A DNA stretch of 54,389 nt, taken from Emcibacteraceae bacterium (GTDB taxonomy: Bacteria > Pseudomonadota > Alphaproteobacteria > Sphingomonadales > Emcibacteraceae). Below the pieces are notes generated by a model. It did no database searches. It saw only the letters and a list, made by a program, of their open reading frames with translations, and was not told the origin of the DNA. The stretch covers positions 1 to 54,389 of the forward strand of contig JANQJN010000005.1 in assembly GCA_028281625.1 (NCBI GenBank), read 5' to 3'. Every line of letters begins with the position of its first letter. The first letter of the stretch is position 1. Below, one piece after another: positions 5,258-44,736 of this stretch. Both the position numbers and the translations under genes were made by a program.

Positions 5258-5283
5258 CTTATGCCTCTCCCTTATTTGTAATG

Positions 5284-5307
5284 GCGGAGCGAATAAACCC
5301 GCTCCGC
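5284..5307 (-). other. Perfect 8-bp intergenic hairpin between TonB receptor and CobN-like gene
   Basis: GCGGAGCG and CGCTCCGC flank an 8-nt loop in the 67-bp gap between the receptor stop and the CobN-like start. On the minus strand no U-run follows, so this is not a classical terminator for the receptor mRNA. It more likely acts as an mRNA stabilising or processing stem that lets receptor and chelatase be made in different amounts. Function is inferred. Confidence 0.55.
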
Positions 5308-5324
5308 TTTGATTTCAGTTACCT

Positions 5325-27958: not shown

Positions 27959-28881
27959 TATCTATCCGCCGATCTGTTTTCAAGAGGTGGATTTGTTAGA
28001 AGATCAAGCAGTGGGGAATCTTCCGGCAGTATCAATGTTGTATCAAGATCAATGATGCTTCCATACACTTCCAAAGTTCGCAAAAATTCGTAAAAATCTT
28101 CTTTATCTTTATAGGCTTCCGCGTAAATGCGTGCTGCTTCTGCTTCTGCTTCACCACGTGCGATCTCCGCTTCAGCTTCGGCTGAAGCAATTATCTCAGC
28201 GCTTTGTCTGCTTGCGTCCGCAAGGATTTTTCTAGCTTCTGCATCCCCTTCTGAGCGGTAAGATTTCGCAATACGCTCACGCTCCGCACGCATACGGGCA
28301 TACACACTGATCAAGTTCTGTGCAGGGAAATTGAATTTTGAAACTCCAATGTTGGTAAATTCAATACCATAATCGCGACTGGCCAGCGTGGAGGCCTCAT
28401 TAAAGATCGATTGTTCCATTGCGGAAATATTTTCAGCTGCCATCATGTCACTGAGCTGACTAATGTCGGCAGGGATATAATCCGTGAATGGTTTTTGCCC
28501 TAGCGCTGCACCAAAAAGGGACTTCACCAGATTTTCTATACGAGCTTCCGCTGCATCTCTGGTTCTAAGTGCCGTCAGGAACTTTTCCGGATCCACAATC
28601 CGCCATGTCAGGAAGGAAGAAACAATGATATTCTTTTTGTCTGACGTTAAAAATTCTTCTTCTGGTATAATCTGATACATATTGCGTTTATCGAAACGGA
28701 CAACCCTTTCAAAGGGCATAGGAAGCTTCATTCTGAGACCGGGCTCATCATGCACTGCAACCGTACGACCGAAACGTGTCACAATACTAAATTCCGCTTC
28801 ATTGACCACGAAAAAGGACGTCATCAAGTAAGAGACTATTAATATTGAAATTACGACAATTGGGGCTTTTTTCTTCATCAT
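27958..28881 (-). CDS. SPFH/band 7 protein, HflC-like
   Basis: 307 residues from ATG at 28881, the start nearest a GGAAGAG ribosome site; the ORF-track start at 28980 lies inside the upstream gene. One membrane helix (APIVVISILIVSYLMTSFFV), then VNEAEFSIVTRFGRTV, the HflC-like FLTSDKKNIIVSSFLTWRI and the C-terminal AEAEAEIARGEAEAEAARIY-type repeat with YKDKEDFYEFLRTLEVY, all characteristic of HflC. It would pair with an HflK-like partner in a membrane ring; both neighbours are HflK-like. Confidence 0.87.
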   Translation of the reverse strand: MMKKKAPIVVISILIVSYLMTSFFVVNEAEFSIVTRFGRTVAVHDEPGLRMKLPMPFERVVRFDKRNMYQIIPEEEFLTSDKKNIIVSSFLTWRIVDPEKFLTALRTRDAAEARIENLVKSLFGAALGQKPFTDYIPADISQLSDMMAAENISAMEQSIFNEASTLASRDYGIEFTNIGVSKFNFPAQNLISVYARMRAERERIAKSYRSEGDAEARKILADASRQSAEIIASAEAEAEIARGEAEAEAARIYAEAYKDKEDFYEFLRTLEVYGSIIDLDTTLILPEDSPLLDLLTNPPLENRSADR

Positions 28882-28897
28882 TTTAAATCTCTTCCCT

Positions 28898-31039
28898 TTA
28901 ATCCTTAAATTTGAACCTGACGACATCTTCTGCATTCGGGTCGAGCCATAAATCAACTCCGTCCGAATTCTGTAGTCCATTAAGATAAAGTGTTGGCAGG
29001 ATGAGCCATCTTTCCTGAGCCTCTAACTGCAGTCTTTTTTCTGTCAGATATGGATAGCTTTGATGCACGTCTGCAAGTGGTTTAAAGGCTGCTGCCTGCC
29101 CTCTTGCAAATGCTAATTCTCGTGCGGCGCTTACGCTGGCGTTTGCTTTAACGGTTTCAGAATTACCTCGGGCTTCATTAAGCATGGAAATAGCGTCACC
29201 ATCAGCCAAAAACAGTGATCTTTGCATATCCTCGAGCGAGCTAGCTACGTCACGAAATGCGTCATGCACACGGTTCGGGGCGTGGACATATACGAGTCTG
29301 GCATCAAGAACATTAAAACCCTGATCAAGCGCATTTACTTTATTTTTTAATTGATCCCGAAACCGTTGCTCAAGTCCGCCACGCTCCGTGGTAAATACTG
29401 AATCAATAGGAAGCTGCACGGCTTCAGACACAAGAACCTGCCGCGCTAGATCCATCAACAGGTTGTCATTTTTTTCGCTGTAAAAATGGTAATTATAAAT
29501 ATCGTCAATTTCATATGTTATTACCGATTTTATAAGTAGAACATTTTCATCTGCTGTTAGATACGTGTTTGAATTTTCGTATGAATTTACTCTTTCCCCG
29601 CTCACTGTGAAATTACCGAGGCTTTCATCGATTGAAATTTGCCGAACATTGCCGGTGTCAATAACCACCGCTTCAGTAATGGGGGATGGCAGTCTAAAAT
29701 ACAGGCCAGGTGATAATTCACTGTCCACCACTTCACCGAACCTGAGAATCATGCCCTGACTTCCAGGTGGGACCTGCACAGTATAATAGGGGTAAAGCGC
29801 AATAATTACGATCGCGGCCGTCGCGCGCATCAAATTCTTTTGATGCGATTTTAAAAAACCACCAGCAAGAGAAGCTTGCATTTTTAAGTCGTTAACCGGA
29901 TCAATATAACTTTTACGTCCAAAACTGACGATAACCAATCCTACAAAGATAACGGTAGCTGCCCATTTCGCGACCATCCAAAATGTGCTATCGGGGCTAT
30001 TCAAAGCAACGATCGTGTCGGCTCTGACAATATCTGCAGCAAAATAATCAAGCAAAAGACCGGCACTAATAGCAACTACAATAATTGATGATAGATAAGC
30101 CCACATCACTCTGTAACCAAGCATCTTGCCAACAATATTTATAGTCGCGATACTGGTCGCCGGACCTGTTAGAAGATAAACAAGCGCAGCCCCTGGCGAC
30201 AATCCGCTGATAATCAAACCAGCTGCGACAGGTGTAGACATGCTGGCACAAGTGTATAGCGGCACACTAATCAAAACCATCAGAAGCATGGAAAGAATGC
30301 TGGCGAGCAGCCCATCTCCAAAATTAAAAAAGTTATCGGGTACAAGAGCAAGCATTATCCCCGTAATCACCAGCCCTGCCACAATCCAGAAAGCAATGTC
30401 ATCAATCATTGGGCCAAAACCATAATTGAAAACGCCTTTTGCCTTTTGCTTCCAGCCTACGTTTTTGGAGGCCGCCAGTTCTCCTTCATCGTGATGATGG
30501 TGATGGTGCTCATGGTCGTGATCGTGATCGTGATGATGATGGTGGTGGGTTAGCTCTTCCAGTTCTTTTTGGTCTTCTTCTGAAAGCTCGTCATCATCCT
30601 TCTCATCACGTGTCAGAAAAGCACAGGAAAGGCCAGCTGCAATTGCACTTACCAGGGCCGCAAACGGTCTATAGATGGCCATGAAAGGTCCAAGTAGTCC
30701 GTAAGAGACAATTACCGAATCCACACCTGTTTCCGGCACGGATACAATGAAGGAAGCTGTAGCTGGTTTTGAAGCACCTTTTTTGCGCAGTGTTGCTGCT
30801 GCTGGAAGCACGCTGCAAGAACATAATGGTAAGGGGGCACCCAGAATTGTGGCCCAGAAAATTCCCTTAATTCCCTTTTGGCCAAGATTCTTGGTGATCA
30901 GTTTCATGGGAATAAATTCATGCAAAACGCCCGCAAAAAACAGACCAAATAGAATGAATATTGAGCTTTGATAAAATATTCCTACTGTCTCAGTAACAAT
31001 GCTGACAGCAATATCATATAAGGCTAATAAAAACTCCAT
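28898..31039 (-). CDS. Fusion: Cu/Zn-type permease (SO_0444-like) with C-terminal SPFH domain
   Basis: 713 residues. Residues 1-375 form a permease of the SO_0444/ArsP-like group: about eight membrane segments, the PLCSCSVLPAAATLRKKGAS motif (CxC at 73-75), a His/Asp-rich cytoplasmic loop at about 165-183 and a second Cys motif (LYTCASMSTP). Residues 402-700 are a complete HflK-like SPFH module with its own membrane helix, VPPGSQGMILRFGEVV and a helical tail. Each half matches a normally separate family at full length, so this is a genuine fusion with one uninterrupted reading frame. Family permeases export divalent metals; the SPFH part probably embeds the permease in a ring with the two following SPFH proteins. 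Ribosome site GGGAG supports the start. Confidence 0.88.
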   Translation of the reverse strand: MEFLLALYDIAVSIVTETVGIFYQSSIFILFGLFFAGVLHEFIPMKLITKNLGQKGIKGIFWATILGAPLPLCSCSVLPAAATLRKKGASKPATASFIVSVPETGVDSVIVSYGLLGPFMAIYRPFAALVSAIAAGLSCAFLTRDEKDDDELSEEDQKELEELTHHHHHHDHDHDHEHHHHHHDEGELAASKNVGWKQKAKGVFNYGFGPMIDDIAFWIVAGLVITGIMLALVPDNFFNFGDGLLASILSMLLMVLISVPLYTCASMSTPVAAGLIISGLSPGAALVYLLTGPATSIATINIVGKMLGYRVMWAYLSSIIVVAISAGLLLDYFAADIVRADTIVALNSPDSTFWMVAKWAATVIFVGLVIVSFGRKSYIDPVNDLKMQASLAGGFLKSHQKNLMRATAAIVIIALYPYYTVQVPPGSQGMILRFGEVVDSELSPGLYFRLPSPITEAVVIDTGNVRQISIDESLGNFTVSGERVNSYENSNTYLTADENVLLIKSVITYEIDDIYNYHFYSEKNDNLLMDLARQVLVSEAVQLPIDSVFTTERGGLEQRFRDQLKNKVNALDQGFNVLDARLVYVHAPNRVHDAFRDVASSLEDMQRSLFLADGDAISMLNEARGNSETVKANASVSAARELAFARGQAAAFKPLADVHQSYPYLTEKRLQLEAQERWLILPTLYLNGLQNSDGVDLWLDPNAEDVVRFKFKD

Positions 31040-31380: not shown

Positions 31381-33681
31381 TCACAGCGCCAATGTTATTT
31401 TTTGTCCCTTGACGCGCGAACAACAGGTCATCATTCTATCGCCCTGCTTTCTTTCCTTACTGGTAAGAACCTGATCCCTGTGATCTATATCCCCCTCAAT
31501 CACTTCGATTTCGCAAGTCCCGCAAATACCTTCCTTGCAATCATTGGGTACATCCATTCCTTTTGCAAGTAACGCCTCTAGGACCGTCTGATTCGCACCG
31601 ACTTTGATTGTCAGTTCAGAATCCTGCAAATAAGCATCAAAGCTATGTTCCTCTTCAGCATTAAGCGTTGCAACGTTGGAATTGAAATACTCGTAATGAA
31701 GAGCTCCCTCTGGCCAATTTTCAGCTAAGAACTTGAGTTCATGGAGCAACCGCTCTGGACCACAAGCATAAACCTGCTGGCCTTGGACCAAATCAGCGGT
31801 TAGTTCCGAAAGTTGCATTCTCATGCCGTCTTCGCCTGAATAAAAAGAAAGGCAATCACCATGCTGTTCTTTTAGTCGTTTTGCAAACGTCATGGAACTA
31901 AGGGACCGCCCTGCATAATGAACAGTGTAATCCTTGCCAAGCTCCCTCAATCTATCAGCCATGGCAATGATTGGTGTGATGCCAATACCACCCGCAATTA
32001 GCATGTATTTTTCAGCGGTTTCATCTAGCTTAAAATGATTTTTTGGCCCAACGATCTGAACTTTGTCACCGACAGCAAGTTTTTCATGAAAATGAAGCGA
32101 ACCGCCACGACCTTCCGTTTCTTTTAAAACCGCAATTTTGTATTGGTCGCCGGCTTCTGAAGACCCACAAAGCGAATATTTGCGGCTAAACTCCCCGTGA
32201 ATGAAATCGATATGAGCGCCCGCCGTCCAATTAGGAAGGCTTTTACCATTTAAACTGGCAATTGTAATTTCAATCACATCTTTTGTTTTTGATGAGATCT
32301 CCTCAACCCGTACCGTTCGATAAAGCTCGTCTTTGGACGGTGGCCCAATTTTAAAATGTGTGTGCTCAGTAAGAATTTCAGGGTCGGCCTTTTCAGGGTT
32401 TTTGTCTGGATCCCAAGTGACCCAAAGCTCTGAAGCTCCGCGAAAGGATGTATTGGGCAAGAACTCAAACTTTTGATCAGTTTTAAGTTCCATATGAGGG
32501 AGTCTCTTTACAAACTCTTCGAGGAAGATCCTCATTTCCATACGACCTATGTTCTTGCCCATACATTGGTGACTGCCGTAACCAAAGGTAAGATGATCCG
32601 TTGTATTGTCGCGGTAAAGATCAATTTCATCAGGGTTTTCAAAATGCCGTTCGTCATGATTGGCCGATGCCGTTACCATCAGAAGCCGAGCATCCTTGGG
32701 GACTTTTACATCACCAATCTGTGTGTCACGTGTTGCCTGCCGCCTCCAGGCAACAACTGATCCTTCAAAGCGCAAACATTCTTCAACAGCATTGGGTATG
32801 AGCTTCGGGTTTTCACATATTTCCTTCCATTTCTCCTTATTACCGAGAAGAACACGAAACATATTACTGGTTGCGTTGGAAGTGGTTTCATGAGCCGCAG
32901 CGAGGATCGCCATCATCATTGAGTTCAAGTAAGACTCTGTCACGATCTCCGGATACTTTAGGTGCTGGCGTACCGTAAGATACATCCACCCTTCACCCTC
33001 AGGATTTTCTTTCATCTTCTTTATGATATCGACAGCAACCGTCCAAAACTTGCCCACCGAATGAGCAACATCAATTTGTTCTTCCGGTGTTGGCCTTCCC
33101 CAGGTATTTACCGTGTGCGCAACCGAAAAACTTCTGATTTTCTCACTATCCTCATCGGGTACACCTAAAAAATGAAGCGCCACCATTAAGGGTATTTCCT
33201 TAAACATTTCAGCGACGAGATCCGCTTCGCCCTTTTCAATGAAGCGGTCCATATATTCACGGGTAAGAGCACGCACGGCAGGCTGATGTTTTTCAAGTTC
33301 TTCAGGATCAAAGCTGTCCATTAAAACGCGGCGCCGCTCCATATGGGCTGGTTCATCCTCATTTACCAATGTGCGGTTCATCGCGTAACCATAACTTTTG
33401 AGGACCTCCATCGCTTCGGGTGGTGCCGGTGTTATTTTTTCGAGCGCAATGCAGGGAGAAAATAAGATATTGTCACGAAAAATTGCTTTTACGTCATCGT
33501 ATCTGCTGACAATCCAATATCCTAAACGAGGACTATAAAATACTGGCTCCTGTTCCCTGGCCCATTTCAGCGCCTCTGCGGGGTTGACATGATAGTCGCC
33601 TTCGAACGCATCAAATTTTCGTGCACCATGGGAAATGGGACATCCGGTTGGTGTTAGCTTTTGATGATCTTGATTACTCAT
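31381..33681 (-). CDS. Self-sufficient cytochrome P450 (CYP116B-like): heme-FMN reductase-2Fe2S fusion
   Basis: 766 residues from ATG at 33681, which overlaps the IclR stop (ATGA). Domain order: P450 (1 to about 425) with I-helix AAAHETTSN, ExxR in EECLRFEGS and heme ligand FGYGSHQCMGKN (Cys about 373); FMN/NAD reductase of the phthalate dioxygenase type with RKYSLCG and GGIGITPIIAMAD; C-terminal ferredoxin with CKEGICGTCEIEV and a final Cys (MTCC). This is the class VII layout, so it needs only NADH/NADPH and oxygen. Some CYP116B enzymes are reported to ortho-hydroxylate phenylacetate. Here it ends an operon with an FAH-family hydrolase, a VOC protein and an aminotransferase, which fits hydroxylation of an arylacetate; substrate unproven. 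Confidence 0.95.
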   Translation of the reverse strand: MSNQDHQKLTPTGCPISHGARKFDAFEGDYHVNPAEALKWAREQEPVFYSPRLGYWIVSRYDDVKAIFRDNILFSPCIALEKITPAPPEAMEVLKSYGYAMNRTLVNEDEPAHMERRRVLMDSFDPEELEKHQPAVRALTREYMDRFIEKGEADLVAEMFKEIPLMVALHFLGVPDEDSEKIRSFSVAHTVNTWGRPTPEEQIDVAHSVGKFWTVAVDIIKKMKENPEGEGWMYLTVRQHLKYPEIVTESYLNSMMMAILAAAHETTSNATSNMFRVLLGNKEKWKEICENPKLIPNAVEECLRFEGSVVAWRRQATRDTQIGDVKVPKDARLLMVTASANHDERHFENPDEIDLYRDNTTDHLTFGYGSHQCMGKNIGRMEMRIFLEEFVKRLPHMELKTDQKFEFLPNTSFRGASELWVTWDPDKNPEKADPEILTEHTHFKIGPPSKDELYRTVRVEEISSKTKDVIEITIASLNGKSLPNWTAGAHIDFIHGEFSRKYSLCGSSEAGDQYKIAVLKETEGRGGSLHFHEKLAVGDKVQIVGPKNHFKLDETAEKYMLIAGGIGITPIIAMADRLRELGKDYTVHYAGRSLSSMTFAKRLKEQHGDCLSFYSGEDGMRMQLSELTADLVQGQQVYACGPERLLHELKFLAENWPEGALHYEYFNSNVATLNAEEEHSFDAYLQDSELTIKVGANQTVLEALLAKGMDVPNDCKEGICGTCEIEVIEGDIDHRDQVLTSKERKQGDRMMTCCSRVKGQKITLAL

Positions 33682-34481
33682 ATAGCGTCCCAAGAACCCA
33701 ATTTTTCGTTCAAGCGTTGCTGCGATTCTAATAAGGCTTGCTTTATTTTCTGCGCCGCCCTGCTGTCCTCTTCCCCTATATCATGTTCATAACCAATGAC
33801 AGTTAAGACGAATTCTGCCTCTCCGCGAACTCCCACCACAGGAACGGAAAGGGAAATGACATTTGGCTGAAAATCACCCATTCCGATTGAAAGGCCAGTT
33901 CGTTTTATCTCTGCCAGCTCATCCTTAAATTCGGCTTTGTCAAGTTCGAGGCCACCTATTTTTGGCTTTACGGGCAATGCACCATAAGATGAAAGCAACG
34001 CGTCTTTCTTTGCATCGTCAATCAATGCTGCGAACATCCTGCCGGTTGCACTATATATTGGGGAGAGCACTTCACCTATTCTAACCATCAGTGTGATTGG
34101 TCGTGAAGAGGCTTTTCGACCAACCACAAGTGCGGCGTCATCATTCCAGATCGACAAAAACACTGTCTCGTCAACTTTCGCATTTAGAATATCCAGTTCT
34201 TCATTGGCAAGGCTCACTCTATCAATACGCTTAATAGCCTTAAAGCCAATATCAAGGGCCTTTGGCCCTAAATCATATAAACCCGGCTCCTTTAAACGCG
34301 TAACCAAGCCCGTTTCAATTAGACTTACCAGATAACGATGAACTTTCGCTGGGGACATATCAATTTGCTGTGAAAGGGCATTTAGTGATATTGGCCCACC
34401 CGCATCAACGATAGCATCCAGAACCGTCATGCCAATAACGACAGAATTGATACCTTGCTGTATTTTCCTTGGTTCAGACAT
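33678..34481 (-). CDS. IclR-family transcription regulator
   Basis: 267 residues: N-terminal winged helix-turn-helix (about 10-75, ISLNALSQQIDMSPAKVHRY) and C-terminal effector-binding domain (YSATGRMFAALIDD; ISLSVPVVGVRGEAEFVLTV). IclR proteins usually control catabolic operons for aromatic or small organic acids next to them. It begins directly after the FAH-family stop (TGA-ATG) and overlaps the P450 gene, so it likely autoregulates this operon and may act at the palindrome at 37164-37186. Confidence 0.93.
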   Translation of the reverse strand: MSEPRKIQQGINSVVIGMTVLDAIVDAGGPISLNALSQQIDMSPAKVHRYLVSLIETGLVTRLKEPGLYDLGPKALDIGFKAIKRIDRVSLANEELDILNAKVDETVFLSIWNDDAALVVGRKASSRPITLMVRIGEVLSPIYSATGRMFAALIDDAKKDALLSSYGALPVKPKIGGLELDKAEFKDELAEIKRTGLSIGMGDFQPNVISLSVPVVGVRGEAEFVLTVIGYEHDIGEEDSRAAQKIKQALLESQQRLNEKLGSWDAI

Positions 34482-35465
34482 TCATTCCTCTAATGGTTTG
34501 ACCACTTGATCAATGGCACCGAATATGGAGTTTCCTTCATAATCGGTAAGATCGATTTTTACACGATCATCAAATTGAAGAAGGGCAGTTTTGGCCGCAC
34601 CTTCATTTATGATTTCAAGGGCTCGAATTTCACCAATACAGCCACACCCAACGCTTTCGTCTTCGTTTGACACAGTCCCCATGGCAATAATGGTCCCAGG
34701 TTCAAACGTTCTGGTTTTTGCCACATGCGCGATCATATCACCATAACTAAAAGGCGAACCAATACCTGCTTCCAGTTTACCAACCTTTTCGCCCCTCACC
34801 CAACAATGCATCTCTCCAGAAACGAAGCGACTATCCCAAAGATCGCCCAACTCATCAGGTGTAACCACAATGGGTCCCAGCGATGATGATGGTTTTCCCG
34901 TTAGAAACCCGAAAGATCGTTTTAATTCAGGCGGAATCAACGCGCGTAATGAAATATCATTAAGCAGACCAAAAAGCTTAATGTGTTCTGCTGCTATTTC
35001 GGACGATACGCCTACGGGCACCTCGTCCGTAATCGCCGCGATTTCTGCTTCAAAATCAATGCCGTGCTTTTCGCATGGCAATCTAATAGGATCATTCCAC
35101 GCCATATAACCATGAGAAATGCCCTGATAAATGAGCGGTGCATCCAATATGTCGTCCGGAAGACTATCGCCTCTTGCAGCGCGATTACGGCTGATATGGC
35201 TTATGTAACAGGCACCATCCAGATATTGATAGGCCCGAGGCAGCGGCGCGCCAAGGTCATTAAAATCAAGGTCAAACACATCAGATACTTCATTGCAATT
35301 CAGATTTTCATAAAGCGATTGCAGTTTTGGCGCCACTTGATCCCAATCATCAAGTGCGGCTTGCAGTGTGGGTGCGATATTATCTGCATGACAACCCCGC
35401 TTCATATCTTGACTTACAACGATCAACCGACCGTCACGTCCTCCTTTTAACGACGCCAACTTCAT
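34482..35465 (-). CDS. Fumarylacetoacetate hydrolase family protein
   Basis: 327 residues starting MKLASLKGGRDGRLIVVSQD, the form seen in alphaproteobacterial FahA-like proteins of tyrosine/homogentisate degradation. Metal-site acidic residues are in GIDFEAEIAAIT; SFGFLTGKPSSSLGP and GTIIAMGTVSNEDESVGCGC form the active-site region. The family hydrolyses C-C bonds of ring-cleavage products such as fumarylacetoacetate. Three bases after the VOC gene and directly before the IclR gene. The family is sure; the exact substrate is inferred from context. Confidence 0.9.
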   Translation of the reverse strand: MKLASLKGGRDGRLIVVSQDMKRGCHADNIAPTLQAALDDWDQVAPKLQSLYENLNCNEVSDVFDLDFNDLGAPLPRAYQYLDGACYISHISRNRAARGDSLPDDILDAPLIYQGISHGYMAWNDPIRLPCEKHGIDFEAEIAAITDEVPVGVSSEIAAEHIKLFGLLNDISLRALIPPELKRSFGFLTGKPSSSLGPIVVTPDELGDLWDSRFVSGEMHCWVRGEKVGKLEAGIGSPFSYGDMIAHVAKTRTFEPGTIIAMGTVSNEDESVGCGCIGEIRALEIINEGAAKTALLQFDDRVKIDLTDYEGNSIFGAIDQVVKPLEE

Positions 35466-35468
35466 TTA

Positions 35469-36014
35469 TTAATCCCGTTTGTAGCCAGTTTTGCCGCCAA
35501 ATACCTTTTCTCTTTGCGACCAGTCGTGTGTTTGATCCCAAAGTTCCAGTACTTCGTAAGCTTCATTTTCAAATACTTCATCGCGCATGTTGTCGGATGT
35601 ATCTGCTGTCATTTCAAGGCGGTGCCCATTTGGATCATGAAAATAAATAGACATTATAAAGTCGTCATGATTTACAGGACCGAGCACGTCAATCCCCAAG
35701 CTTTCAAGCCTTTCTTTTTCAGAAAGCAAAACATCCACACTTTCCACTTTAAATGCAAAATGCTGTACCCAGTCAGGCGTGACTTGGTCCTTCACATTCC
35801 CCGGATCATTTGGAAGTTCAAAAAATGCGATCGATGAGCCATCTTCCATTTGTAAAAATATATGTACATGTGGGCTATATTCGCCGGTGGAAGGGACATG
35901 ATCTTCACCCATAGCATGAGCAAACTTTAGGCCAAGAATATCTGCATAAAAATGAACTGTTTCCTTCGCATCACGGCACCTGAAGGCCGCATGATGTAAT
36001 CTCTTTATAATCAT
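35469..36014 (-). CDS. VOC-superfamily protein, possible extradiol-type dioxygenase
   Basis: 181 residues from ATG at 36014 (AAGGAG ten bases upstream). A paired VOC fold with a possible metal triad: His in RLHHAAFRCRD, His in WVQHFAFKVE and Glu in NGHRLEMTADT, as in type I extradiol dioxygenases and glyoxalases. Extradiol dioxygenases are normally near 290-310 residues, so this is a single-module form. Its place between aminotransferase and FAH-family genes suggests action on a ring-cleavage step or its product. It could equally be an isomerase or lyase of the same fold. The ORF-track TTG start six bases upstream is less likely. Confidence 0.82.
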   Translation of the reverse strand: MIIKRLHHAAFRCRDAKETVHFYADILGLKFAHAMGEDHVPSTGEYSPHVHIFLQMEDGSSIAFFELPNDPGNVKDQVTPDWVQHFAFKVESVDVLLSEKERLESLGIDVLGPVNHDDFIMSIYFHDPNGHRLEMTADTSDNMRDEVFENEAYEVLELWDQTHDWSQREKVFGGKTGYKRD

Positions 36015-36016
36015 GT

Positions 36017-37117
36017 TCAAATTACTCCTTGCATCTTAAGTGATTTCATCACATCAACCAGCAATCTTAACGATTCCTCCGGCCCGATTGTGATCCGCAT
36101 ACAGTCTGGCAATCCCGCCCCACCACAGGGCTTTACAGATATTCCATGTTCAACGAGCCGCGCATTTACCACATTACATTGCTCAGCTCCACCTGAGAAG
36201 CGCACCAATGAAAAGTTGCACACGCTGGGCGCCGTTTCCAACCCAAGTGAATTTAGTTCCGTTTCCAGCCATTTTCTCATGGAGGCGTTATAGTGCTGCA
36301 CCTTTTCTTCATGTTCAATATCCTGGATGGCTTCAATACCAGCTGCGATCGCCGCAACGTTAATGTTAAAGCCTGCACGTACCTTATTGAGGACTTCTAT
36401 GATCGAAATTGAGGCATATGCCCAACCCAGGCGCAATCCTGCAAGTCCATACATTTTGGACATTGTCCTTGTCATTATGACGTTATCTTTTCCATTATCA
36501 CACAGCGTCCACCCCGGACAGTAATCATCAGCGTGAACAAATTCCGCATATGCTGAATCGATGACCAGAAGAATATCTTCGGCCAGTTCATCCCTTAACC
36601 GTGCCATTTCACTGTTTGGGATATATGTTCCGGTTGGATTTCCTGGATTTGCGACATAAACAACTTTGGTGTTGCTCGTGACCGATGATAGAATCTGATC
36701 CACATCAACAAACAGATTACTTTCACGTGCAACCACCGTATTTGCGCCAACGCAGCTGGCGGCAATGGGATATATCACCATGCCATGTTCCGTATAAAGG
36801 ACATCATCACCAGCATCGGCGTAACCACAAGCGATAAGCCGCAATATATCTTCTGAACCTGAACCGCAGAATATCTTCTCAATATCCCGATTATATCGGT
36901 CAGCAATTGCCCTCCTTATTTCAGGGTTCCCCGGAGGCGGATAACGATCACAACCGTTTAAAGCACTTTGTGCCGCCGCGATCGCTTTTGGACTGGGACC
37001 AAGCGCAGATTCGTTAAAGGAAAGCCTGTGAATTTTATCGACATTCTTAAACTTCATGGCACCTGGCGTATAACCAGACATGTTATAAATCGATTTTTTT
37101 GGCTGAACGAATGTCAT
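36017..37117 (-). CDS. PLP aminotransferase, histidinol-phosphate aminotransferase-like
   Basis: 366 residues of fold type I. Landmarks: LSFNESALGPSPKA at the start, ANPGNPTGTYIP (Asn binding PLP), DSAYAEF and the PLP lysine in TRTMSKMYGLAGLRLGW (K221), with a C-terminal Arg in CMRITIGPEES. HisC-like enzymes include many that act on aromatic amino acids. No histidine genes are nearby; it is the first gene of the operon with VOC, FAH, IclR and P450. That context favours a catabolic aromatic or related amino-acid transaminase. Confidence 0.9.
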   Translation of the reverse strand: MTFVQPKKSIYNMSGYTPGAMKFKNVDKIHRLSFNESALGPSPKAIAAAQSALNGCDRYPPPGNPEIRRAIADRYNRDIEKIFCGSGSEDILRLIACGYADAGDDVLYTEHGMVIYPIAASCVGANTVVARESNLFVDVDQILSSVTSNTKVVYVANPGNPTGTYIPNSEMARLRDELAEDILLVIDSAYAEFVHADDYCPGWTLCDNGKDNVIMTRTMSKMYGLAGLRLGWAYASISIIEVLNKVRAGFNINVAAIAAGIEAIQDIEHEEKVQHYNASMRKWLETELNSLGLETAPSVCNFSLVRFSGGAEQCNVVNARLVEHGISVKPCGGAGLPDCMRITIGPEESLRLLVDVMKSLKMQGVI

Positions 37118-37163
37118 GTTTTCTCTTGTTTAATAGCTGCAGAATTAAATTTTATTATAAGTA

Positions 37164-37186
37164 AATTATTTATTCAATAAATAATT
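37164..37186. promoter_or_regulatory. 23-bp perfect AT-rich palindrome between divergent catabolic operons
   Basis: AATTATTTATT-C-AATAAATAATT is an 11-bp inverted repeat about one centre base, 47 bp upstream of the aminotransferase start and 134 bp upstream of the aldehyde dehydrogenase start. Its placement in the 202-bp divergent promoter region makes it a good candidate operator, perhaps for the operon-borne IclR protein. AT-rich DNA forms palindromes by chance more readily, so this is moderate. Confidence 0.55.
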
Positions 37187-37319
37187 AAAGCTAAATCATT
37201 ATCTACAAAATTCACGCATAACATCTATATATTCAGCTAATTTATACACTTTTTTCTTGATTTTGACCATCATGTTCGTATTTACTTTATGTTTAACATA
37301 TACATTATAACAGAAAATC

Positions 37320-38747
37320 ATGAACAATCATCATAAGCTTTATATTGGCGGAAAATGGGTTGGAAGCGACCAGAATGATTTAATCTCAATTATTAATCCT
37401 TGCAACAAAGAGGTGGTATCAAATTTATGTGCCGCTTCAGAGGAAGATATTGAAGCAGCACTAAGCGCAGCACAATCAGCCTTTGAAAAATGGTCAAAAA
37501 CCACAGCGGAGCAAAGATCAAATTTCCTTAAGAAGGTCGCCAATATTATGCAGGGACGCGCCGAAAAAATGGCGCGCATTTTGACCATAGAACAAGGAAA
37601 ACCTATCGCAGAAGCCACAGGTGAAGTCGCAACAGCAATTCGTGCATTCGAGTGGGCTGCCGGTGAAATTGAGAAAATTCAATCTAAATCATATGGGGAT
37701 GGGCCACCAGGCTACACTCAAAAAACCGAGTATGAACCAGTTGGCGTTGTTGCTGCATTCGCGCCTTGGAATTTTCCGGCTATGCTGCCCGCTCGTAAAA
37801 TTGCATTTGCACTTGCCGCAGGTTGCACCATGATCATCAAGCCCGCAGAGGAAGCACCAGGGGTTACCCTTGAAATCGCAAAAGCAATCGACGAAGCGGA
37901 CCTACCTGCTGGAGTTCTGAACATAGTGTTTGGCGATCCTGCAATGATCTCAACAAAACTGATAACATCCAAAATCGTTCGTAAAGTAAGTCTGACCGGA
38001 TCTACGGCGGTTGGTAAATTACTGGCAGGAATGGCTGCTGAAAACCTAACCCCTTGCGTACTTGAATTGGGCGGCCATGCACCCGTACTGGTATTTGATG
38101 ATATAGATGTTGAAAAAACGGCCAAAGCGCTGGCGGCATTTAAATATAGAAATGCCGGTCAGGTTTGCGTGTCACCTACCAGATTTTTTATTCATGAAAA
38201 TATTGCTGACGATTTCCTAAGGGTTTTCAAAGAATACGCTTCAAACATAGTGGTTGGTAACGGGCTTGATATTGATACAGATATGGGACCCCTCGCCCAC
38301 GAACGAAGACTGGCAGCGGTTGATGCGCTTGTTAAGGATGCAGTTAACAAGGGAGCGACACTTTTGCTTGGTGGTAGTGCCGTTGAAGGTGATGGATACT
38401 TTTATACACCGACTATCCTGACCGAAGTACCCGAAGATGCATCGATTTTGAAAACTGAAATTTTTGGCCCGGTTGCTGTTATTTCAACATTTTCAGATAT
38501 TGACAACGTGATCAGCCAGGCAAACGGTACAGATTATGGCCTGGCTTCCTACCTGTTTTGCGAAGATCAAACAAAAATAGAGTATGTTAGAAGGCGCCTG
38601 GAAGCGGGATTGGTTAGCATCAATATAGTGACCCCTATCCTCGAAAATGTTCCGTTTGGTGGTGTTAAAGAAAGCGGCTATGGTTACGAAGGTGGCAGAG
38701 AAGGACTGCTTTCCTTTATGAACTTAAAACTTGTTCACGAGGCCTGA
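37320..38747 (+). CDS. NAD(P)-dependent aldehyde dehydrogenase
   Basis: 475 residues of the ALDH superfamily: AFAPWNFPAMLPARK and TMIIKPAEEAPG bind cofactor, SLTGSTAVGKLLAG is the Rossmann turn, E249 (LELGGHAP) is the general base and C283 (NAGQVCVSPTR) the nucleophile. It resembles succinate-semialdehyde and related dehydrogenases, but CVSPTR instead of CxCANR leaves the substrate open. It heads the rightward operon with a sulfatase, a ThDP enzyme and a transporter. In the proposed pathway it would oxidise an arylacetaldehyde made by the ThDP enzyme; with the nearby GABA transaminase it could also act on succinate semialdehyde. Confidence 0.92.
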   Translation: MNNHHKLYIGGKWVGSDQNDLISIINPCNKEVVSNLCAASEEDIEAALSAAQSAFEKWSKTTAEQRSNFLKKVANIMQGRAEKMARILTIEQGKPIAEATGEVATAIRAFEWAAGEIEKIQSKSYGDGPPGYTQKTEYEPVGVVAAFAPWNFPAMLPARKIAFALAAGCTMIIKPAEEAPGVTLEIAKAIDEADLPAGVLNIVFGDPAMISTKLITSKIVRKVSLTGSTAVGKLLAGMAAENLTPCVLELGGHAPVLVFDDIDVEKTAKALAAFKYRNAGQVCVSPTRFFIHENIADDFLRVFKEYASNIVVGNGLDIDTDMGPLAHERRLAAVDALVKDAVNKGATLLLGGSAVEGDGYFYTPTILTEVPEDASILKTEIFGPVAVISTFSDIDNVISQANGTDYGLASYLFCEDQTKIEYVRRRLEAGLVSINIVTPILENVPFGGVKESGYGYEGGREGLLSFMNLKLVHEA

Positions 38748-38750
38748 GCG

Positions 38751-40346
38751 ATGGGAGACAGAACCAATTTCATTTACATTATGGTTGATCAGGCAAGAAA
38801 TGATTTCTTTGGCTGTTACGGTAATAAAATTATTAAAACTCCCAATATTGATGCGTTGGCTGCTCGGGGCGCAGTATTTGATCAGATGTATGTGGCAAAT
38901 CCTTTTTGTATGCCATCGCGTTCTGCCATAATGACTGGCAGGATGCCATCCGCAAATGGTGCCAGAACAAACGGCACCCCACTTAGCCTTGATGCCCGTA
39001 CTTTTGTTGGCTCGCTTTTAGAGGATGGTTATGAAACAGCACTGATTGGGAAATGCCACCTTCAAAATATGACCGGCTTGCCGCGTGCACACACGCCCGA
39101 TGACATTGAGCGTTTCAAATTGGATGCAAATGGTTATCCAAACCAGCCGACAAAGTCCCGGCTTATGGGGCCGGATTATGAAAGTGAAAACTCCAGACTT
39201 TGGCACCAAGATGGCAATCACACCGTAAAAACACCCTATTATGGTTTTTCGCAGGTGAATTTATGCACCCTTCACAGTGATAACGTTGGCGGCGAATACA
39301 GGCGTTGGCTGGAAAGCAGGATCGGTGATCCGGATAAAATAAAAGGTGCGAAGAACGGTCTGGATAAAGGTGATTATTCTGCTCCCCAGGCATGGCGAAC
39401 CGCCATCAAGGAAGAACATTATTCAACATCTTATATTGGTGAACAAACGATAAACTGGCTAAAAGATCATTCTAGAAATGACACAGAGAAGCCTTTCTTT
39501 CTTCATTGTTCATTCCCTGATCCACACCACCCGTTCGCACCACCAGGAAAATACTGGGATATGTATGATCCGGCAGAGATGAAACTACCCGAAAATTTTG
39601 GCAAAGGTTCCGGAGCTGTCCTCAATCACATGCGAAGTGAGCTTGAAGATGGCACGGCTGGGCGTGAGAGCACTTTGCCATATGCGGTCAGTGAAAAGGA
39701 AGCCAGAGAAGCGATTGCCTTAACTTACGGTATGGTCACAATGATCGATGATTGGGTAGGAAATATCATGTCTTCACTGGATGAGCTTGGCCTTGCTGAC
39801 AACACAGTGATTATATTCTCGTCTGATCACGGGGAATATATGGCCAATCATGGTATTATGCTGAAAGGTCCGCTTCACTATCAGGGTCTGGTGAGAATTC
39901 CATTTATCTGGTGTGACCCTAAAGATAAAAACCCTAGCCGTATCAATGCGTTGTGCTCAGCAATTGACATCGCGCCAACCGTAGTCGAAGCAAGCAAAGC
40001 ACCCGCTTATTACGGTATTCAGGGAATAAGTTTGGCTAACCTTATCAATGGCGAAAAAAGCAGTCATAGAGACAGCGTTCTTATAGAGGATGACCGTGAA
40101 GTTATCTATCTGGGTTTTGAAGAGCCGCAAAGAGTAAGGACAATGGTCACTAATAACTATCGCATGAGCATGACATTACCCGCAAATATATTTGAACTTT
40201 ATGATCTAAAGAGTGACCCGCTTGAAATAAATAATATTTGGGATCACCCCGACTATGAAAATGCGCGCATCCAGGAAACGGAGCGCTTCTTAAAGCTAAT
40301 GAGCGAAATGCAAGATTGGGCACCACTACCAACAGGTAGAGCGTGA
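38751..40346 (+). CDS. Type I (formylglycine) sulfatase
   Basis: 531 residues. The nucleophile motif is CMPSRSAIMTGR, with Cys53 the residue converted to formylglycine, matching C-x-P-x-R. Metal-site residues are in IMVDQARNDFFGC, SSDHGEYMANHGIM and nearby; PFFLHCSFPDPHHPF is typical of the family. There is no signal peptide, so it acts in the cytoplasm, on a substrate taken up intact. Related phosphonate monoester hydrolases share the motif. It is 3 bp after the aldehyde dehydrogenase and before the ThDP enzyme. A maturase is not in the window. Confidence 0.92.
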   Translation: MGDRTNFIYIMVDQARNDFFGCYGNKIIKTPNIDALAARGAVFDQMYVANPFCMPSRSAIMTGRMPSANGARTNGTPLSLDARTFVGSLLEDGYETALIGKCHLQNMTGLPRAHTPDDIERFKLDANGYPNQPTKSRLMGPDYESENSRLWHQDGNHTVKTPYYGFSQVNLCTLHSDNVGGEYRRWLESRIGDPDKIKGAKNGLDKGDYSAPQAWRTAIKEEHYSTSYIGEQTINWLKDHSRNDTEKPFFLHCSFPDPHHPFAPPGKYWDMYDPAEMKLPENFGKGSGAVLNHMRSELEDGTAGRESTLPYAVSEKEAREAIALTYGMVTMIDDWVGNIMSSLDELGLADNTVIIFSSDHGEYMANHGIMLKGPLHYQGLVRIPFIWCDPKDKNPSRINALCSAIDIAPTVVEASKAPAYYGIQGISLANLINGEKSSHRDSVLIEDDREVIYLGFEEPQRVRTMVTNNYRMSMTLPANIFELYDLKSDPLEINNIWDHPDYENARIQETERFLKLMSEMQDWAPLPTGRA

Positions 40347-40365
40347 GTAATTGGAAGAAATCAGT

Positions 40366-42036
40366 ATGGAAAAATTAGAATTAACAGGCGGTCGGCTGCT
40401 CGTCAAATGTCTGCAAAATCAAGGGGCAAATATCGGCTATTCCGTGCCTGGGGAAAGCTATCTGGGTGTGCTGGATGCACTTTACGAAGCTGAAGATGAG
40501 TTTGATTTGATCATTTGCCGCCAGGAAGGCTCGGTTGCCTTTATGGCGGAAGCATATGGCCGCATGACAGGTCGACCAGGACTTGGGTTCGTGACCAGAG
40601 GTCCCGGTGCCGCAAACGCGGTAATTGGTGTTCAAACAGCGTACCTGGACGGCACACCAATGATCCTTTTTGTCGGCCAGGTCCCCCGTAAAAACCGCGA
40701 GCGGGGTGCCTTTCAGGAGCTGGATCTTAAGGGCTTATTCGGATCGACCGCCAAGCTGGTTATGGACATTGATGACCCGGCCCGTATCCCCGAAATTATC
40801 GCCCGCGCCTATCGAACCGCCTGTTCCGGGCGCCCAGGCCCCGTTGTAATCGGCCTTCCGGATGATATGCAGCTGGAATCGGTTGAGGCAAGCCCATGTG
40901 ATCGGACCACACGGACAACATCAGGCGTGGATAGTGAAAACTTGATACGTTTAGGACTTAGTATTGCCAACGCCAGGAAACCATTGATCCTATTGGGCGC
41001 CAAACCCGCCAATTGGTCACAGCTGGATTCAGATAACCTTCAAAAATTTTCTGAAAATCATTCCCTGCCAGTTGTTACCGTTTTTCGCCGTCAGGACCAG
41101 TTCAACAATAGTCATCCCAATTATGTCGGTGTCAAAGGCGTCGGAAATGATCCAAAGCTGGAGCAAATGGTTGATGAGGCTGACACATTGATTGTCATCG
41201 GCGCTGAAATCACCGACATTGAAAGCAATGGCTATACCAAATATGAAATCCCGCATCCCAGCAAAAAACTTATTCACTTATGCGATAATTCTGAAGACAT
41301 TGGCCGGGTTTTCCAACCTGATATTGCAATTCAAAGCGATTACAAGAATATGACTGAGGCGCTTGCCAGTTTAGTGACAAAACATGATGCACCGTGGAAA
41401 AGCTGGGTGACACAGTGCCGAAACAATTATGAGGTATTCACAGCTGATCCCGGTAATCAGCAAAAAGCCGACCTTTCAGGTGTAATTAAATACCTTCGTG
41501 AAGAAACAGCCGATGACACAATCGTGTCGTTCGGTGCTGGGAATTATACACAGTGGGTTCAGCGCTACTTTACTCACCATCAATTTGGCACTCAAATGGC
41601 CACCCAGTCTGCTGTCATGGGATATTCTGTTCCTGCCGCGATTTCGGCCAGCCTCCAATATCCGGATCGAACAATATTGTCCTTTGCTGGCGATGGCTGC
41701 TTTTTAATGAACGGACAGGAACTGGCAACAGCAGCGCGTTACGACACAAATGTAAAATTTATTGTGATCAATAACTCACTATATGGTTCCATTCAAATGC
41801 ATCAGGAAAAACGCTTTCCCAATCGTTCAATTGCTTGTAGCCTTACCAATCCTGATTTCGCAAAACTGGCAGAGTCCTATGGCTTAAAAGCGCGCCAGGT
41901 GTTTACCAGGGAAGAATTTGTTAAAGCCTATCAGGAAATAGGCAAACCCAAGGGCAATTGCCTTATCGAGATTATTACCGATCCAAATGTTGTAACACCG
42001 AGCATCATGCTAAGTGACTTAAGAAAAGGAAGTTAA
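40366..42036 (+). CDS. Thiamine-diphosphate-dependent enzyme, acetolactate synthase/decarboxylase-like
   Basis: 556 residues from ATG at 40366 (GGAAG eight bases upstream); the track's TTG start is less likely. The N-terminal pyrimidine-binding domain has the catalytic Glu (CRQEGSVAFMAEAYGR, E54), the middle domain FGSTAKLVMD and the C-terminal ThDP motif starting AGDGCFLMNGQELATAARYD and ending in IVINN. The family includes acetolactate synthase, 2-oxoacid decarboxylases, sulfoacetaldehyde acetyltransferase and carboligases. No small regulatory subunit accompanies it, so valine/isoleucine synthesis is unlikely. Context suggests decarboxylation of a 2-oxoacid from the aminotransferase. Confidence 0.9.
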   Translation: MEKLELTGGRLLVKCLQNQGANIGYSVPGESYLGVLDALYEAEDEFDLIICRQEGSVAFMAEAYGRMTGRPGLGFVTRGPGAANAVIGVQTAYLDGTPMILFVGQVPRKNRERGAFQELDLKGLFGSTAKLVMDIDDPARIPEIIARAYRTACSGRPGPVVIGLPDDMQLESVEASPCDRTTRTTSGVDSENLIRLGLSIANARKPLILLGAKPANWSQLDSDNLQKFSENHSLPVVTVFRRQDQFNNSHPNYVGVKGVGNDPKLEQMVDEADTLIVIGAEITDIESNGYTKYEIPHPSKKLIHLCDNSEDIGRVFQPDIAIQSDYKNMTEALASLVTKHDAPWKSWVTQCRNNYEVFTADPGNQQKADLSGVIKYLREETADDTIVSFGAGNYTQWVQRYFTHHQFGTQMATQSAVMGYSVPAAISASLQYPDRTILSFAGDGCFLMNGQELATAARYDTNVKFIVINNSLYGSIQMHQEKRFPNRSIACSLTNPDFAKLAESYGLKARQVFTREEFVKAYQEIGKPKGNCLIEIITDPNVVTPSIMLSDLRKGS

Positions 42037-42037
42037 T

Positions 42038-43426
42038 ATGTCCGATAGTCCGCAAACAACCACAACACCCCGCGCCACCTGGTCGTCAGAACGGGTGTTT
42101 CTTTTTGCGGTAATCGGTGGTGCGGTCGGCGTCGGAAACTTATGGCGTTTTCCATATCTTGCCGGCGAAAATGGCGGCGGTACATTCATCTGTATTTATA
42201 TCATTTCCGTTATTGTTCTGAGCATTCCCCTAAAAATGTCGGAAGTAGCGTTGGGAAAAGCCGGTCGCGCGAGTCCGGTTACCAGTTTTAGAAACATCGC
42301 CAAACAAGAAGGACGATCCAGTTTATGGAGTTGGGTTGGTTGGTCAATGAGCCAGTCTCAACTACTTATTCTCAGTTTTTATGCAGTGATTGGCGGATGG
42401 AGCCTCAAATACGCTATACTAAGCTTGCAAGGGGCGCTTAACGCCATCGACACCGAAGGAGTTGAGCGGGTCTTTAACTCAATAAACGACGACCCGTTTA
42501 CTCTCGGCACTTGGCATTTCATCTTTTTATTTTTAACAACCCTCATCGTTTCGAGGGGCATCAAAGGCGGACTGGAACAGGCTTTTAAAAAACTGGTTCC
42601 TAGTTTGCTCATCATTTTAATCGCCCTTGTTATCTGGGCTGCGATCGCCGCTGACTTCAGCGCGGCTGTGCAGTTTTTATTTCATTTTGATATTTCAAAA
42701 CTGTCCTGGGCTATGGTGCTTGCGGCCGTTGGTCAGGCATTCTTTTCATTGGGCGTCGGTGCAGGCATCTTTATGGCATATGGAAGCTATGTCCCAAAAG
42801 GAACTTCGGTTCCTAAGACCATGCTTATTACCGGTGTCGCTGATACATTCGTGTCTTTAATTGCGGGTCTTGCCATATTCCCGTTTGTCTTTGCATATGA
42901 CCTGCCCACCGCGCAAGGTCCAGGGCTGTTCTTTCTGACATTACCGCTTGCCTTTGGCGCGATGCCGCTTGGATCTCTTGTAAGCTTCCTGTTTTTTACC
43001 CTTGTCTTTTTCTCAGCACTCTCAAGTTCACTGGGAATGCTTGAAGTTTCCATTTCACGATTTAAAGAAATTTGGCCCGGCAAAACCCTTAAACTGGCCG
43101 TCTATTTTGGTATTGGCTGCTGGCTTATTGGGCTTTTATCAGTATTTTCATTTAACATTCTTGAACATGTTGAGCCATTGCATTGGATACCACTTTTTGA
43201 AGGACGTAATATTTTCCAGAGCTTTGATTATTTCCTGGGAAATATTGTGCTTCCGGTTAATGGACTATTGATCGCTATCTTCTGCGGATGGGTATTAAAG
43301 TATCAAACCGCCAAATCCTATTTAGGATTTAAGTCAGAAAGGATCGCTCGTATCTGGCATATGATCGTGAGATATTTTGTGCCAGTTACGCTAAGCCTTG
43401 TCATCGTAGGTAGCTTTAGTTCTTAG
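42038..43426 (+). CDS. Neurotransmitter:sodium symporter (NSS) family transporter
   Basis: 462 residues with about 11-12 membrane segments. The first helix motif GVGNLWRFPYLAGENGGGTF is the NSS signature that forms the Na+ and substrate sites; LeuT and TnaT/MhsT belong here. NSS proteins import amino acids, including aromatic and GABA-like ones, with Na+. Starts one base after the ThDP gene stop, so it is the uptake step of the operon. The convergent gabT-like gene follows after 20 bp. Confidence 0.93.
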   Translation: MSDSPQTTTTPRATWSSERVFLFAVIGGAVGVGNLWRFPYLAGENGGGTFICIYIISVIVLSIPLKMSEVALGKAGRASPVTSFRNIAKQEGRSSLWSWVGWSMSQSQLLILSFYAVIGGWSLKYAILSLQGALNAIDTEGVERVFNSINDDPFTLGTWHFIFLFLTTLIVSRGIKGGLEQAFKKLVPSLLIILIALVIWAAIAADFSAAVQFLFHFDISKLSWAMVLAAVGQAFFSLGVGAGIFMAYGSYVPKGTSVPKTMLITGVADTFVSLIAGLAIFPFVFAYDLPTAQGPGLFFLTLPLAFGAMPLGSLVSFLFFTLVFFSALSSSLGMLEVSISRFKEIWPGKTLKLAVYFGIGCWLIGLLSVFSFNILEHVEPLHWIPLFEGRNIFQSFDYFLGNIVLPVNGLLIAIFCGWVLKYQTAKSYLGFKSERIARIWHMIVRYFVPVTLSLVIVGSFSS

Positions 43427-43446: not shown

Positions 43447-44736
43447 TTAATTACCAGCAAGTTCGCCAAGAACATCTTCAAGTATATCAAGACCTTCATT
43501 AAGGATTTCATCCGAAGCTGTAAGCGCAGGCAGAAAGCGGATCACGTTTCCACGCACACCACAGGACAGCAGAACCAGTCCTTTCTTGGCAGCTTCCTGA
43601 ACCACTCGACCGGTAAACTCAGCATCCGGTTTATCGGCGTCACCGTCCTTGACCAGCTCAACCGCAATCATGGCACCAACATTTCTTATATCGCCCAGGC
43701 ATGTGATTTGGTTTGAGCGCATTTGAGTGAGACGCTTGGTGAACAAATCACCAATTTCATTTGCACGCTCAATCAAGTTATCGCTTTCAATTATTTCCAT
43801 GACCTTAAGACCAGCAACACATCCTAGAGGTGAGCCGCCATAGGTACCGCCAAGCCCACCAGGCGCCGCTGCGTCCATAATATTCGCTTTACCAACAACA
43901 GCAGAAATAGGGAAACCGCCAGCCATGGCTTTTGCCGCTGTCATGATATCTGGCTCAATACCGGTATGCTCTGTCGCAAACATTTTACCAGTTCTGGCAA
44001 AGCCCGTTTGGATTTCATCACAAATCAGCAATATACCATGCTCGTCACATACCTTGCGCAAGGCTTGCATAAAACTTGGCGACGCCTGATAGAAGCCGCC
44101 TTCACCCTGGACCGGCTCAATAATGATCGCCGCTACGCGGGATGCCTCAATATCTGATTTAAATAGCGCATCCAACGCATTCAATGAATCTTCTTCACTG
44201 ATACCGTGATATTCCACCGGAAACGGTGCGTGGAAAATATCCCCCGGAAATGGCCCAAACCCAACCTTATAGGGCACGACTTTACCGGTAAGTGCCATCC
44301 CCATCATGGTGCGGCCATGAAACGCCCCCTTAAAGGCGATGATGCCGGTACGACCAGTTGCTGCGCGGGCGATCTTAATGGCATTTTCAACCGCTTCCGC
44401 ACCGGTGGTCAGGAAGATGGACTTTTTCGGTGTATCACCAGGTGCGGCTTCATTTAACTTTTCCGCAAGTTCAATATAGCTCTCATACGGGTTTACCTGA
44501 AAACACGTATGGGAAAAATTATCGATCTGCGCCTTAACCGCTTCTGTGATGCGCGGATCACTATGACCGGTGTTGGTCACTGCAATACCGGTGGCAAAAT
44601 CGATGTAGCGATTACCTTCAACATCAATAATTTCAGCATTCTTCGCTGACGCGGCAAAACGTTGATGCATGGTACCAATTCCACGTGGAATGGCAGCTTC
44701 GCGGCGGGCCCATAGTTCTTTATTGTTTGCGGTCAT
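43447..44736 (-). CDS. gabT: 4-aminobutyrate aminotransferase (class III)
   Basis: 429 residues. Class III aminotransferase: IDFATGIAVTNTGHSDPRI, TTGAEAVENAIKIARAATGR, the PLP site ICDEIQTGFARTGKMF and lysine K269 in AAKAMAGGFP. The sequence is close to typical GabT proteins, which turn 4-aminobutyrate and 2-oxoglutarate into succinate semialdehyde and glutamate. A strong ribosome site (AAGGAGG) precedes the start. No GabD is adjacent; the aldehyde dehydrogenase at 37320 or one elsewhere would complete the route. Confidence 0.9.
   Translation of the reverse strand: MTANNKELWARREAAIPRGIGTMHQRFAASAKNAEIIDVEGNRYIDFATGIAVTNTGHSDPRITEAVKAQIDNFSHTCFQVNPYESYIELAEKLNEAAPGDTPKKSIFLTTGAEAVENAIKIARAATGRTGIIAFKGAFHGRTMMGMALTGKVVPYKVGFGPFPGDIFHAPFPVEYHGISEEDSLNALDALFKSDIEASRVAAIIIEPVQGEGGFYQASPSFMQALRKVCDEHGILLICDEIQTGFARTGKMFATEHTGIEPDIMTAAKAMAGGFPISAVVGKANIMDAAAPGGLGGTYGGSPLGCVAGLKVMEIIESDNLIERANEIGDLFTKRLTQMRSNQITCLGDIRNVGAMIAVELVKDGDADKPDAEFTGRVVQEAAKKGLVLLSCGVRGNVIRFLPALTASDEILNEGLDILEDVLGELAGN

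Follow-up and report, generated by a model that had tools for sequence, protein, structure and literature searches.

The stretch of DNA analysed here, called the window, has 54,389 nucleotides and is the entire contig JANQJN010000005.1 (C180) of an Emcibacteraceae bacterium, whose 3.9 Mb genome is in 205 contigs. Between positions 31381 and 43426 it carries two divergent operons, which an earlier reading of the letters (the original prediction) took for a catabolic system for an aromatic, possibly O-sulfated, amino acid. That interpretation is partly supported by the present analysis. Open reading frame (ORF) calls and family profile searches confirmed the nine genes it had described, all intact and in the order and positions listed below.

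31381..33681, minus strand: CYP116B-type self-sufficient P450 (heme-FMN reductase-2Fe2S), predicted 2-hydroxyphenylacetate 5-hydroxylase forming homogentisate
33678..34481, minus strand: IclR-family regulator (PF09339 and PF01614)
34482..35465, minus strand: FAH-family hydrolase, predicted fumarylacetoacetate hydrolase (PF18288 and PF01557; PDB 3lzk)
35469..36014, minus strand: VOC-fold homogentisate-dioxygenase-like protein, predicted to cleave the ring (PDB 9u42 homology, hmgA-slot context, phyletic pattern)
36017..37117, minus strand: HisC-like pyridoxal phosphate aminotransferase (PF00155)
37118..37319, no strand: divergent intergenic region, candidate promoter/IclR operator, with AT-rich blocks (TATAAGTAAATTA-like; TTTTTTCTTGATTTT-like) kept across clusters
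37320..38747, plus strand: aldehyde dehydrogenase (ALDH; PF00171, 527 bits)
38751..40346, plus strand: formylglycine-type sulfatase with a CMPSR motif (PF00884, PF16347)
40366..42036, plus strand: thiamine diphosphate (ThDP)-dependent 2-oxo-acid decarboxylase-like enzyme (NF006052, PRK08199)
42038..43426, plus strand: NSS-family Na+-coupled transporter (PF00209; NF037979 above cut-off)

The minus-strand operon runs HisC-VOC-FAH-IclR-P450 and the plus-strand operon ALDH-sulfatase-ThDP-NSS. In both, adjacent genes are ~20 bp or less apart or share a few bases; a spacer of 202 bp lies between the operons. The conserved blocks in this spacer come from an alignment of five divergent spacers, that of the window (37118-37319) and its equivalents in L064-L066 and L071. 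The next gene after the NSS transporter is a convergent gabT (43447-44736), which falls outside the conserved set.

Among 33 genomes of the family, a search with the ThDP enzyme recovered close orthologues, at 68-75%, in three that belong to the same genus, and their neighbourhoods (L013, L014 and L015, labelled Kordiimonadaceae) have P450-IclR-FAH-VOC facing ALDH-sulfatase-ThDP on the opposite side. When public genomes were scanned with the sulfatase profile, the same contigs came back together with L064, a metagenome-assembled genome (MAG) labelled Gammaproteobacteria, which has the whole set. This core is thus retained in five genomes, in the same order and orientation and at 59-81% protein identity. 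HisC lies inside the cluster in three of the five loci (L014 and L015 are without it), and the transporter is of the NSS type in two clusters and of the MFS type in three (L013, L015, L064), so both HisC and the transporter stand outside the invariant core. The spread within the genus is patchy, with the cluster in 4 of 14 genomes, and this, taken with L064, suggests that it has moved by horizontal transfer, or else that the L064 MAG is mislabelled. Every one of these gene families is common on its own, as would suit unrelated genes that are adjacent by chance; yet the recurrence of the same core in three genomes of the genus and in L064, with order, orientation and identity shared despite the patchy distribution, makes chance adjacency extremely improbable. 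Plasmid searches did not find the cluster: relatives of the sulfatase stand there beside TTT/TRAP transporters, and the surroundings of plasmid CYP116Bs are mostly P450 with a TRAP or MFS transporter, with no VOC, FAH or sulfatase gene.

The fused architecture of the P450 was confirmed by matches to PF00067, Fer2 PF00111 and a TIGR02160-like reductase. Over its full length the protein is 55-59% identical to six plasmid CYP116Bs, including CYP116B1 of C. metallidurans, which places it in CYP116B by the subfamily limit of >~55% full-length identity to members; the heme domain is 62-66% identical, and the structural relatives are PDB 6kbh/6laa. Its heme motif, FGYGSHQCMG, fits FxxGxxxC and is common to CYP116B1, and those pocket motifs of an 18-residue list that were open to mapping, namely L104-V105, T192-W193, S307-V308, W311 and F412, are the same as in CYP116B1, whose source strain grows on 2-hydroxyphenylacetate (2-HPA). 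The conversion of 2-HPA to homogentisate has been described for OhpA, CYP116B234, B46 and B305 (PMC8449657, PMC11889516, PMC12126322). The characterised CYP116Bs hydroxylate 2-HPA at C5, and 3-HPA and 4-HPA are poor substrates (PMC8449657, PMC12126322): NADH oxidation by OhpA runs at 952, 44 and 31 U/g with 2-, 3- and 4-HPA (PMC8449657), and the dissociation constant of CYP116B305 is 0.4 uM for 2-HPA versus 65 uM for 4-HPA (PMC12126322). Because of this chemistry, and because the mapped pocket motifs match those of CYP116B1, 2-HPA is the expected substrate of the window P450. The 2-HPA pathway of Cupriavidus pinatubonensis JMP134 resembles the cluster in its CYP116B (OhpA), its homogentisate intermediate and a nearby regulator, OhpR, which adjoins the CYP116B operon and is also of the IclR type (PMC8449657). 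JMP134, however, imports 2-HPA and encodes HmgA elsewhere (PMC8449657), whereas the P450 of the window is grouped with a sulfatase, an aminotransferase, a ThDP decarboxylase, an ALDH, FAH and a VOC-type dioxygenase.

The original prediction had the P450 form homogentisate by ortho-hydroxylation of 4-HPA, which is wrong: the product of that reaction is the 2,4-diol, 2,4-dihydroxyphenylacetate, whereas homogentisate is the 2,5-diol, and to reach it from 4-HPA the side chain would have to migrate. The tyrosine-type substrate proposed with it is among the less likely ones, since the characterised CYP116Bs use 4-HPA so poorly. A route from tyrosine O-sulfate through 4-HPA would agree with the recurrence of sulfatase-aminotransferase-ThDP sets beside amino-acid-type carriers, with an HpaB-like gene (4-hydroxyphenylacetate hydroxylase family) at one such locus, L067, and with an HPPD fragment immediately before a related sulfatase in L127; but tyrosine, once desulfated, could enter the HPPD route that is present in the genome, and given also the chemistry and the kinetics above we consider this route quite unlikely. 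A literature search on tyrosine-sulfate catabolism found nothing relevant.

Homogentisate formed in this way would need a ring-cleaving enzyme. Neither the cluster nor the rest of the genome has a match to HmgA (TIGR01015 / PF04209), and the 33 family genomes yielded no canonical HmgA, only a single weak cupin match (G003). The VOC protein was proposed for this role from its gene context before a structural match came up. Its only strong solved relative (46-48% identity; phmmer 3e-47) is PDB 9U42, released on 2025-07-23 and titled "Crystal Structure of Homogentisate 1,2-Dioxygenase from Acinetobacter in Complex with Zn ion"; this title is the sole functional statement found for it, and no accompanying paper was located in the literature. 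Foldseek with the AlphaFold model (pLDDT 78) likewise ranked 9U42 first (E 9e-17), with a poor superposition (TM-score only 0.42, root-mean-square deviation 17 A). The metal set H9, H86 and E135, together with H52, H117 and Y125, is invariant in a first set of 44 sequences (residue 1 is the codon before the ATG), and we take this 2-His-1-carboxylate site and its second-sphere residues to parallel those of extradiol enzymes. The original prediction had recognised the VOC gene and left its role unassigned; in view of 9U42 and the hmgA slot, its product is likely a ring-cleaving dioxygenase. Since 9U42 has been deposited, a VOC-type homogentisate dioxygenase is already known, at least as a structure; a literature search for such an enzyme turned up nothing relevant.

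HmgA and the VOC protein also show a complementary distribution. We scored 385 alphaproteobacterial genomes for VOC (profile E<=1e-60, a threshold set after the score list had been inspected), for HmgA (any TIGR01015 match, so that the class takes in 56 genomes whose sole matches are divergent HmgA-like cupins) and for HPPD (above cut-off). Among the 116 that are HPPD-positive, HmgA alone occurs in 91, VOC alone in 17, the two together in 5 and neither in 3 (Fisher p=2.5e-13); when each family is represented by a single genome, the median p becomes 4e-6 and the least favourable 0.002. Within the family itself 27 of 33 genomes have HPPD, and 30 of 33 MaiA, above cut-off; the four genomes with HPPD and no detected VOC are G001, G006, G007 and G018. 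A divergent HmgA-like cupin near MaiA was considered as the ring cleaver of the Kordiimonadaceae and rejected: it occurs in G001 (without VOC) and G003 (with VOC), accounts only for G001 among those four, and is absent from the FAH-MaiA locus in nine other VOC-positive genomes. In two Kordiimonadaceae genomes (L201 5242-6369; L199 about 5383-6510) a very divergent HmgA-like cupin (~25% to HmgA) is flanked by MarR and FAH, and separate divergent HmgA-like proteins, below the TIGR01015 cut-off and often beside hpd, are common in alphaproteobacteria.

Gene order places the VOC family in the same slot. Relatives of the VOC protein occur in hpd-VOC-fah(-maiA) operons of genomes without HmgA: the order is hpd-VOC-fah-maiA in L187, hpd-VOC-fah in L188-L191 (the L189 VOC was located by genome scan, in a frame overlapped by another ORF), hpd-VOC in L186, L192 and L193, and VOC-fah in L196 and L197. 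A LysR-TAXI-TRAP-sulfatase operon runs into HmgA-FAH in L123 and into HmgA-MaiA-FAH in L106; in Leucothrix arctica (L083), a genome that gave no HmgA match, it runs into VOC-FAH-MaiA instead. The window shares with the classical HmgA-MaiA-FAH pathway an FAH-family hydrolase in the cluster and a MaiA elsewhere in the genome; unlike that pathway, it has the VOC protein in the dioxygenase slot, canonical HmgA being found neither in the genome nor in the family. The hydrolase has the PF18288 and PF01557 architecture; the NCBIfam equivalog TIGR01266 was not among its matches at E<=1e-3, the PF18288 type being a different architecture. The genome also carries HPPD, MaiA (C153) and one further copy each of FAH and VOC, and because HPPD is kept the cluster does not act in place of the HPPD route, as had been proposed.

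The remaining enzymes were assigned at the level of families. The sulfatase has PF00884 and the C-x-P-S-R motif (C-M-P-S-R in the window protein); its four orthologues have C-M-P-x-R, with S changed to A or T in two. It scores below substrate-specific models (arylsulfatase NF010322, 245 vs 481 bits; choline-sulfatase TIGR03417, 211 vs 433) and is probably cytoplasmic, as no N-terminal signal peptide is apparent. A reading of the cluster as a phosphonate pathway, with a PhnA-like hydrolase and phosphonopyruvate decarboxylase, was dropped because the hydrolase has the formylglycine sulfatase motif. The aminotransferase falls below the cut-off of TIGR01141 (263.6 bits, cut-off 276.55), so it is a HisC paralogue and not HisC proper. 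The ThDP enzyme exceeds the cut-off of NF006052 (PRK08199; 664.8 bits vs 539), which gives family membership and not substrate, and the ALDH is SSADH-like but under the curated cut-offs of all the models listed.

The sulfatase, the ThDP enzyme and the HisC-like aminotransferase travel together outside the family as well, in L067, L068 and L081. The order in L068 is HisC-NSS-sulfatase-ThDP, at 53-54% identity, and L067 has an amino-acid-type ABC transporter-ThDP-HisC-sulfatase together with its HpaB-like gene (ABC and HpaB-like were assigned by eye). The clearest parallel is Octadecabacter (L081 2-11557), where FAD hydroxylase (MhpA-like)-HmgA-FAH-ALDH is divergent from sulfatase-ThDP-HisC-sulfatase, so that HmgA replaces VOC and the FAD hydroxylase replaces the P450. 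Its HmgA is above the homogentisate-specific cut-off and is the only one found in that genome, and its FAH is 65% identical to that of the window. MhaAB of Pseudomonas putida provides a 3-hydroxyphenylacetate 6-hydroxylase route to homogentisate. L081, with an MhpA-like hydroxylase beside HmgA-FAH and sulfatase-ThDP-HisC, is similar and suggests a variant of this route that passes through 3-hydroxyphenylacetate; the window has a P450 instead. The original claims of a dedicated catabolic island with an Ehrlich-type front half (aminotransferase, decarboxylase, ALDH) and of convergence on homogentisate, fumarate and acetoacetate both find support, and in L081 this front half stands beside HmgA and FAH.

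About 20 of 80 sulfatase loci have a homogentisate-pathway gene nearby. In L083, L091, L096, L106 and L123 the LysR-TAXI-TRAP-sulfatase operon is continued by HmgA or VOC plus FAH, in many cases followed by MaiA as well, which suggests uptake of a sulfated homogentisate-type acid. The evidence supports, as the substrate class, C2/C3 acids or amino acids with a sulfated hydroxyphenyl group; we infer where on the ring the hydroxyl sits and which type of acid it is. An aromatic, probably sulfated substrate thus stands, while "amino acid" is not secure because two of the five clusters are without HisC. The substrate might instead be an aryl acid in sulfated form, such as the sulfate of a hydroxyphenylacetate, of hydroxyphenylpyruvate or of homogentisate, with HisC optional, as the clusters of L014 and L015, the three with MFS in place of NSS, and the related sulfatases with TAXI/TRAP organic-acid transporters just before HmgA or VOC would suggest. 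HisC, ThDP and sulfatase genes nevertheless occur together in the distant L067, L068 and L081, and two of these loci have a carrier of the amino-acid type; the ThDP enzyme and ALDH, kept in all five clusters, would be idle on an aryl acetate; we see an aryl acid substrate as a real but lesser possibility.

With modest confidence we therefore favour the reading of the two operons as one catabolic route from a sulfated hydroxyphenyl compound through homogentisate to fumarate and acetoacetate. The compound, likeliest an amino acid or oxo acid of the ortho-hydroxyphenylalanine type, would be imported by the NSS transporter (elsewhere MFS) and stripped of its aryl sulfate by the cytoplasmic sulfatase, as its family suggests. 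The HisC-like aminotransferase would give the arylpyruvate, the ThDP enzyme would decarboxylate this to the arylacetaldehyde, and the ALDH would oxidise the aldehyde to 2-HPA. The P450 would hydroxylate 2-HPA at C5, the reaction characterised for its subfamily, and the homogentisate formed would be opened to maleylacetoacetate by the VOC-fold dioxygenase, the stand-in for HmgA according to its 9U42 homology and context. MaiA, encoded outside the cluster, would isomerise maleylacetoacetate, the FAH-family hydrolase would release fumarate and acetoacetate, and the IclR protein is a likely effector-sensing regulator. Only tentatively do we go further and propose a new pathway: a hydroxyphenyl amino acid that arrives sulfated would lose its sulfate and undergo Ehrlich shortening to hydroxyphenylacetate, and a self-sufficient P450 and a dedicated VOC-fold dioxygenase would make both the formation and the cleavage of homogentisate non-orthologous to HPPD/HmgA.

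Several points weigh against this route. The absence of HisC from two clusters and the varying transporter family have been given above, sulfated ortho-hydroxyphenylalanine is without a literature precedent as a substrate that could be cited, and the specificity of the ThDP enzyme and ALDH is beyond the reach of sequence. HmgA and VOC also coexist, in six of the seven Rhodospirillaceae with a sulfatase-VOC pair and in one operon, hmgA-fah-FAD hydroxylase-VOC-maiA (L194 4682-11849). The genome already has an hpd-type VOC and another FAH. A VOC tree with further loci included places 9U42 among the hpd-linked VOCs, whereas it groups the window VOC, whose gene stands with those of a P450 and a sulfatase, with its cluster orthologues in a clade of their own. 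The paralogue (47% to the window VOC, 60% to 9U42) adjoins gyrB in this genome and in the relatives examined. Because of this separate clade and the second VOC and FAH, the substrate of the cluster pair may be an analogue of homogentisate, for example one that carries an additional hydroxyl, methyl or methoxy substituent; but Octadecabacter fills the same role with its HmgA, above the homogentisate-specific cut-off, beside the FAH of 65% identity, and we hold a substituted substrate to be unlikely. The sulfatase-VOC pair of the Rhodospirillaceae is itself conserved (L074-L080), and its VOC subclade may cleave another para-diol.

Elsewhere in the window, an ArsP-type permease (28898-31039, minus strand) has a His/Asp-rich loop and a C-terminal SPFH (Band 7) domain by Pfam, an unusual fusion, and is followed by two more SPFH proteins (27050-28980), possibly for metal efflux with a membrane scaffold. 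At 533-7610, also on the minus strand, a 1574-aa protein that is CobN-like by eye, with a C-terminal membrane anchor, adjoins a TonB-dependent receptor.

The favoured reading would give the CYP116B P450s a natural metabolic setting beyond plain 2-HPA uptake, and it suggests how marine bacteria use sulfated aromatics. A glyoxalase-like enzyme, likely annotated merely as a generic VOC/glyoxalase protein, would replace HmgA in many alphaproteobacteria, and this replacement would fill an apparent gap in the tyrosine pathway of whole families.

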